From the NCBI GenBank assembly GCA_030154445.1, contig JAGUQW010000006.1, positions 1 to 64,000 on the forward strand: a stretch of DNA of 64,000 bases, in the 5' to 3' direction. This document shows positions 25,222 to 26,998 of this stretch, one piece after another; position 1 is the stretch's first letter, and each line of letters opens with the position of its first letter. This DNA comes from Spirochaetota bacterium. Its GTDB lineage: Bacteria > Spirochaetota > Brevinematia > Brevinematales > Brevinemataceae. Both the position numbers and the translations under genes were made by a program. Below the pieces are notes generated by a model. The model ran no database searches, was not told the DNA's origin, and saw only the letters and a list, made by a program, of their open reading frames with translations.

Positions 25222-26181
25222 TTATTTGTGAGTAATCAAATCTTTTGTAGATACACCAAAAATATTTTGTATCATTAAAAGATCAATATAAGCAATCATA
25301 TTATTTTTAGAGATATAAATAGGATAGGTATTGTTAGTAGTTTTACTACCTATATAAAGATCAGAATATTCTCCATTATTAAATAATAATGATATCATAA
25401 GAGAGGAGTTTTTGTCAATACCTAAGTTTTTTAAAATAGTATTATCAACATCAAAACTAAAAGAATCTGTATTAAAAGTAAGATCTTTTAGACTTAATAA
25501 AAATTTCTTAGTTCCCCAGTCTACATTAGGATTTTCTTCTGGAAATTTTTGTATCCAAAAAGTATTTTCATTTGTTAATTCTATAGTTTCTTGATGCATA
25601 TTTTTGAATTTAATCGCTAAAATATCATCAGTTGATTGAGTAAGAAATTTGTTATTAATAATAGAAGAAATTCCTTGAATAAATGGTTCTATAACATGAG
25701 AATCAATAAGATAGACAGTATTAGAATTATTTATGTCTTTAATATAAAATTGATTCCCTATAGTAGTTTTTTGACCTACAAAAAATCCATAAATAGCATT
25801 GTCAAAAAATCCTGTAATTTTCAATTGAGGAGAATTAAGTCCATAAGTATTTAATTCTGTATCATTGATATTTGTTAACATTTGAGATGGAGTAAGTGTA
25901 AGTAGGCCATTGACTAATAAAGCTGCTTTTTCTGGTAAAATGGAAATATTAATAGGTTCTGTAAGAATCCAAGAGCCTTGATTTTTAGTAATAGTGTAAT
26001 AAACATTGGTGTTATTTTTGTATATTGTGGTAGTAAGTGATAAAAATTTATCTTTTCTGATATTAGACCAAGATAATTTGATAATATTTTCTTTTGAATG
26101 AACTTGTTTTCGATTAATAAAAGTAAAAATTCCCCAACCTATAAATAATATAATACCAGATATTAACAATTGTTTTTTCAT
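25222..26181 (-). CDS. DUF4340 domain protein
   Basis: A 319-residue protein with one N-terminal membrane anchor (QLLISGIILFIGWGIFTF) and a periplasmic part built of DUF4340-type repeats (GSWILTEPINISILPEKAAL, then YGLNSPQLKITGFF). In other bacteria such proteins sit beside GldG/GldF-type ABC transporter subunits; none is present here. The ATG is preceded by GGAG. It is co-transcribed with the sensor-like gene downstream. Confidence 0.7.
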   Translation of the reverse strand: MKKQLLISGIILFIGWGIFTFINRKQVHSKENIIKLSWSNIRKDKFLSLTTTIYKNNTNVYYTITKNQGSWILTEPINISILPEKAALLVNGLLTLTPSQMLTNINDTELNTYGLNSPQLKITGFFDNAIYGFFVGQKTTIGNQFYIKDINNSNTVYLIDSHVIEPFIQGISSIINNKFLTQSTDDILAIKFKNMHQETIELTNENTFWIQKFPEENPNVDWGTKKFLLSLKDLTFNTDSFSFDVDNTILKNLGIDKNSSLMISLLFNNGEYSDLYIGSKTTNNTYPIYISKNNMIAYIDLLMIQNIFGVSTKDLITHK

Positions 26182-26377: not shown

Positions 26378-26526
26378 ATTACGTAAGGCGTTTGTGTGGG
26401 TCCTTAAAAATAACAATAAGTTTCTCACCATAACTCACGTTTCTTAAATAATTAAGAATCATCTTCATTATAGATATTGTCCCTTCATAATAAGGTGTAG
26501 ACCCCACATATTTTGCCTTACGTAAT
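26378..26526. ncRNA. Candidate structured RNA (149-nt dyad) in a 355-bp intergenic gap
   Basis: Nested complementarity is visible: a closing stem of 12 perfect pairs (26378-26389 with 26515-26526), an internal loop, 8 pairs with one bulged base (26395-26402 with 26500-26508), a large bubble whose right side can fold into its own hairpin (26482-26485 with 26492-26495), 6 pairs (26413-26418 with 26475-26480), and an apical hairpin TTCTTAA/TTAAGAA (26441-26458). The overall plan, with a central bubble and a small side hairpin, resembles 6S RNA, but I see no decisive promoter or T-run on either strand. A MITE-like inverted-repeat insertion is the alternative. The flanking bases 26182-26377 are AT-rich and otherwise featureless. 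Confidence 0.45.
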
Positions 26527-26536
26527 ATTATTTGAA

Positions 26537-26998
26537 TTACATATTTGGAAAATTCCAAAAAAATTGGATAGGAAGTGTTAGTATTGATATAATATGATCA
26601 TATTTTTGCAGTACTGGAATATTTTTATAAAATATTAAATTTATAAAAAATAATATAAAAGAGATAAATAACCAACATTGTAAAATACCTACACATGCTC
26701 CATATATACGGGATTTTTTAGATACTTTTCTATAACGATCAGATGTGACTTTTGTAATAATAGGTGCTAAAACAAGATAAAAAAGAATCATTCCAATACC
26801 TGTAATATAATAACTAATATTAATAGAATCTGGTAATAAAATTCTTCCTATTCTAATTGCTGTGCCTGATAAGATAATAGGTACTAATAAACTTAGTAAA
26901 TTTTTAATGGATTTTTCAAATCCTAAATAATAAGAATTTTTAATAAATAATAATAATAATATTATAATAATACCAGTAATCAATATAAAACTGTTCAT
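26537..26998 (-). CDS. CvpA-like membrane protein
   Basis: A 153-residue protein with four hydrophobic helices and a short basic loop (KVTSDRYRKVSKKSRIYGAC) before the fourth, ending GILQCWLFISFILF. The pattern resembles the CvpA family (colicin V production; envelope function poorly defined). The start follows GGAGAG. The window's best RNA-like dyad begins about 10 bp after its stop. Confidence 0.6.
   Translation of the reverse strand: MNSFILITGIIIILLLLFIKNSYYLGFEKSIKNLLSLLVPIILSGTAIRIGRILLPDSINISYYITGIGMILFYLVLAPIITKVTSDRYRKVSKKSRIYGACVGILQCWLFISFILFFINLIFYKNIPVLQKYDHIISILTLPIQFFWNFPNM

Follow-up and report, generated by a model that had tools for sequence, protein, structure and literature searches.

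A probable compact, divergent 6S RNA directly behind a cvpA-like gene in a Brevinemataceae spirochete

6S RNA is a well-known small RNA that restrains RNA polymerase by mimicking an opened promoter, and the question raised by the present locus is whether a 149-nt dyad in a Brevinemataceae spirochete encodes such an RNA. This dyad, hereafter the element, lies in the window (the whole 64,000-nt stretch of DNA that was analysed) between a DUF4340 gene and a cvpA-like gene, and the intergenic placement given by a previous sequence-only reading was borne out. That reading had recognized a 6S-like plan and had kept an inverted-repeat element as the other possibility. It was verified here that the element is a structured RNA, conserved and present once in the genome, and that its position, strand and structure make it an orthologue of the 6S RNAs in the rest of the order. 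Since position, strand, structure and reciprocal profile matches agree, the element is considered, with a probability of about 0.93, the 6S RNA (ssrS) of this family, with its gene on the minus strand immediately after the cvpA-like gene, and it is a compact, shortened and fast-evolving copy.

Fold, coding strand and conservation in the family

When both strands were folded, as had been proposed from the sequence, the plus strand reached −39.7 kcal/mol versus −19.5 kcal/mol for dinucleotide shuffles (z −6.4) and the minus strand −46.0 versus −24.2 kcal/mol (z −6.2), an advantage of about 20 kcal/mol on either strand that none of 200 shuffles equalled in either case. Folds and covariation reveal a rod-like plan, with a closing arm, a central bubble and a loop-capped apical arm, in an AT-rich element (GC content of about 29%) whose 149 nt between the outer pairs make it shorter than a typical 6S RNA, which is near 200 nt. 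The parts described earlier were recovered (Table 1), including the 12 perfect closing pairs, the two arms of which are separated by 125 nt, the 8-bp inner stem, now seen to carry one bulged base, the large bubble with its side hairpin and the apical hairpin. The further stem, previously described as 6 bp long, was also present, although it comprises 7 bp (26428-26434 with 26467-26473).

The sequence-only reading, right about 6S, had left the strand unstated. The RNA-coding strand is the minus strand, because the closing and apical stems, in the window or in the relatives, hold G-U pairs that are broken on the opposite strand. The CTATAAT/GTTATGG stem has two G-U pairs in the window, both of which would break on the other strand, and is entirely Watson-Crick in the relative G002. 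The mature RNA would have its 5′ end approximately near 26526 and its 3′ end near 26378 or a few nucleotides beyond.

In the DNA search, the copy count that had been suggested as a check gave one copy in the genome containing the window (a 1.5 Mb draft, 95% complete), and convincing matches among 60 relatives were confined to three species, two of them congeneric and the third from the same family (E 3.5e-64, 9e-30 and 1e-15). Weak matches in other families (E about 0.0006-0.1) were discarded as short AT-rich matches. In the three family relatives, the element and the cvpA-like gene share a strand, with the element coming immediately after the gene, and the gene on the far side of the element varies across the family, being a DUF4340 gene, a PhoH-type gene (so named from reading its sequence) or an unnamed ORF.

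Compensatory changes were indeed seen in several stems among these three relatives. In the four-species minus-strand alignment, 94% of the cells pair and seven pairs change on both sides, versus 36-52% paired cells and 0-2 two-sided changes when the partners were slid by 1-3 columns, and a mean of 3.2 two-sided changes in shuffles. In G002, the closing stem differs in sequence (CCAAACGTAAAG/CTTTGCGTTTGG), and 12 of 12 positions are still paired in a register chosen by eye and by hand. Taken alone, the covariation among four sequences would constitute moderate evidence. Additionally, conservation is strong in the apical arm, in P2 and in both bubble strands. The 5′ bubble strand and P2 are two of the most conserved segments, which is what would be expected of a pRNA template; the GGGGTCTACA of the P2 5′ arm is common to the element and the 6S RNA of G005.

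Table 1. Features of the element and its flanking genes (positions in the window)
Feature	Position	Strand	Remarks
Probable divergent, compact 6S RNA (ssrS)	26378..26526	-	Fold z −6.2; covariation in three family relatives; match to model R2; slot of RF00013 6S RNAs in order relatives
P1 closing stem, 5′ arm ATTACGTAAGGC	26515..26526	-	12/12 pairs in the window, G001 and G002; sequence changed in G001 and G002
P1 closing stem, 3′ arm GCCTTACGTAAT	26378..26389	-	Pairs with 26515-26526
P2 inner stem, 5′ arm TGTGGGGTC	26500..26508	-	Nearly invariant in the family; 8 bp plus one bulged base
P2 inner stem, 3′ arm GACCCACA	26395..26402	-	Pairs with 26500-26508
Central bubble, 5′ strand, with 4-bp side hairpin	26474..26499	-	Nearly invariant in three of four species
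Central bubble, 3′ strand TGAGAAACTTATTGTTATTTTTAAG	26403..26427	-	Small 3′-bubble hairpin possible in relatives
Apical arm: CTATAAT/GTTATGG stem, then hairpin 26441-26458	26428..26473	-	Every cell of the proximal stem pairs across four species; compensatory and G-U changes occur
cvpA-like (Colicin V production family) membrane-protein gene	26537..26998	-	Pfam PF02674 at E 2e-5, below the curated cut-off; alignment A4 and its search
DUF4340 gene	25222-26181	-	Other flank of the element in the window

The slot behind the cvpA-like gene and the profile searches

When the class was searched with RF00013, eight further species of the order gave matches, at 59.6 to 27.5 bits. Four of these matches scored 56-60 bits and four 27-39 bits, the gathering cut-off being 46.4 bits, which means that the same-slot 6S RNAs of some sister families are also found under the cut-off. 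Each RF00013 match examined shares its strand with a cvpA-like gene and lies no more than a few nucleotides away from the stop codon of that gene. A covariance model built from these eight 6S RNAs of other families, with the window's family left out (R2), identified a ninth 6S RNA in G009 (L112:1501-1689, minus strand), which was missed by RF00013, scored 100 bits and occupies the same slot, closing another 6S gap. In total, 6S RNA is found directly 3′ of the cvpA-like gene and on the same strand in 9 of 9 other species of the order that were compared; when coordinates were compared using protein profile A4, 6S RNA or the element lay within about 15 nt behind the gene in all 13 genomes carrying it. 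In the window, the minus-strand RNA is co-directional with the cvpA-like gene and directly downstream of it, about 10 nt past the stop codon. The earlier 6S-like reading gains its support from this orthology and from the reciprocal covariance models.

Regarding the covariance-model check, a direct match was not obtained, RF00013 having none on the element when E values up to 10 were allowed, and the search with all Rfam models at a relaxed threshold gave only chance matches on the element, e.g., to microRNA families, none of them at cut-off. With E-values that are rough for both of our models owing to a shortened calibration, the direct R2 search matched the element at 23.6 bits (E 0.001), on the minus strand only, and its three homologues at 29.6, 28.5 and 20.0 bits, on the expected strand. 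Over the four family members, E ranged from 4.2e-5 to 6.4e-3 (73 kb searched), and the next best match reached 6.2 bits. In the genome-wide R2 search, the element was not listed, having been missed at the first-look filter. In the reverse direction, a covariance model trained on the window's family (R1) matched the 6S RNAs of G007 (30.5 bits, E 4e-6) and G010 (20.5 bits, E 0.002) and, of the nine 6S RNAs in the order's other families, missed the remaining seven. As RNAs of this kind are nearly palindromic, both models also give scores to their own members on the antisense strand.

Smith-Waterman comparisons with the 6S RNAs of other families gave mostly moderate z values (up to 4.8, many below 2.5). 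Since this pairwise similarity is modest, homology is argued here from profiles and synteny. When all 6S RNAs were aligned with MAFFT, the closing stem was misregistered, and this alignment was therefore excluded from the pair counts. RF00013 and R2 searches of the window's genome (95% complete) yielded no second 6S candidate, in agreement with the earlier remark that no other 6S gene was apparent in the window. In a sister family of the same class (f5, G013-G017), no 6S RNA was found by RF00013, R1 or R2, nor was any convincing cvpA-like homologue, and this family has either truly lost its 6S RNA or carries a still more divergent one.

As to the neighbourhood, HPr, an S30EA-family protein and a flagellar-type sigma factor are encoded around the element, and a short inverted repeat, TTTGGAAAATTCCAAA, was observed at 26548-26563, where the cvpA-like gene approaches its 3′ end; this repeat is probably due at least in part to the conserved FWxFP coding sequence. 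Additionally, in the order's other families (L021, L022, L025, L026, L028 and L112), the next gene immediately after the 6S RNA is a small conserved one of about 95 aa (MDPSALAKMYVDAV...); it is absent from the slot in the window's family, where the cvpA-like gene is retained.

Alternative readings of the element

The close spacing to the cvpA-like gene, with the element starting about 10 nt past its stop codon, would also be compatible with a structure devoid of 6S function (a 3′-UTR or something like a terminator) that belongs to the cvpA-like mRNA or to convergent genes, as would the opposite-strand gene that converges on the element in G002 and G003 and the lack of an outstanding promoter upstream of the element on the minus strand. 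However, the search gave no terminator-like site, the loop and bubble sequences are highly conserved although a terminator would not need them, and relatives carry an RF00013 6S RNA in the same slot, which makes this reading very improbable. It is just as improbable that the element is a 6S-derived RNA with a changed partner or function, such as the binding of core polymerase by actinobacterial Ms1, a documented 6S-like RNA with another partner (PMC9130861). Such a change would suit an element that is shorter and divergent enough for RF00013 to fail, but it is at odds with the strong conservation of bubble strands, P2 and apical arm, and no sign of a different partner was found. A non-autonomous inverted-repeat (MITE-like) element with 12-bp terminal repeats, the alternative raised by the sequence-only reading, deserves almost no credence and was rejected, since, despite inverted ends that are perfect over 12 bp and flanks that diverge sharply just outside them, there is a single genomic copy and no dispersed copies sharing the terminal repeats, which are not enriched elsewhere in the window, the position is orthologous in all four family species, with an RNA occupying this slot throughout the order, and the stem varies by compensation instead of having fixed ends.

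Proposed action, significance and known systems

6S RNA forms a rod whose central bubble mimics the open promoter; its apical arm holds a −35-like region and its 3′ bubble strand a −10-like one. With the 5′ bubble strand and P2 as template, the polymerase makes short pRNAs, and the resulting refolding releases the 6S RNA (PMC8876501). By analogy, as a 6S RNA, the element would imitate a melted promoter through its rod and open central bubble, and would occupy RNA polymerase carrying the housekeeping sigma factor in slow growth or starvation. A −35-like contact region is expected in the apical arm (26428..26473), and the −10-like contact would fall in the 3′ bubble strand (26403..26427; PMC8876501). 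In copying the 5′ bubble strand and running on into P2, the polymerase would then make a short product RNA and so release the element. On the basis of 6S biochemistry (PMC8876501), this pRNA is predicted to start at the 5′ end of the 5′ bubble strand, near 26499, and to begin about AGACCCCACAU, and the P2 5′ arm may represent the downstream duplex together with part of the pRNA template. A rise in the stringent response, as in Borrelia 6S, is plausible. It was also demonstrated that strongly truncated B. subtilis 6S-1 variants are still functional in vitro (PMC8876501). The further idea that the Brevinemataceae 6S RNA is minimised, its shorter closing arm and remodelled bubble hairpins altering polymerase binding or release and giving it a release mechanism or partner of its own, appears unlikely.

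What is new is a compact, divergent 6S RNA that is missed by the Rfam model and was identified via synteny and sister-family profiles, which fills an apparent 6S gap in the family Brevinemataceae; a literature search found no paper naming 6S RNA together with Brevinema. This is a useful annotation and not a surprise, and it illustrates that a missing RF00013 match does not mean a missing 6S RNA. In Spirochaetota, 6S RNA is common: among 296 sampled genomes, RF00013 matches were obtained in 96, about two thirds being without a match at E 0.01 under strict filters, and part of this gap may consist of undetected divergent 6S RNAs like the element. Moreover, the synteny rule, directly 3′ of the cvpA-like gene, locates 6S RNA across the whole order, and a naturally compact 6S RNA would be well suited to testing how much of the fold is required.

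Among known systems, Bacillus subtilis 6S-1 shares with the element a central bubble between two arms and a possible small hairpin in the 3′ bubble strand (PMC8876501), but it is longer, and its pRNA start is known experimentally, whereas here it is predicted. The Borrelia burgdorferi 6S RNA (Bb6S), which is upregulated by the stringent response (PMC6041397), is likewise a spirochete 6S RNA, although of another order. Actinobacterial Ms1 resembles the element in having a 6S-like fold and in having been found partly via gene synteny (PMC9130861), but it binds core polymerase and belongs to another phylum. The closest comparison is with the order's other 6S RNAs (G004-G012), which share with the element the slot, the strand, the rod with closing arm, P2, central bubble and apical arm, and motifs such as GGGGTCTACA and GCTTCT...GAAAC.TGA; compared with their 167-200 nt, the 149-nt element is AT-rich, has a shorter P1-P2 segment and falls below RF00013 detection.
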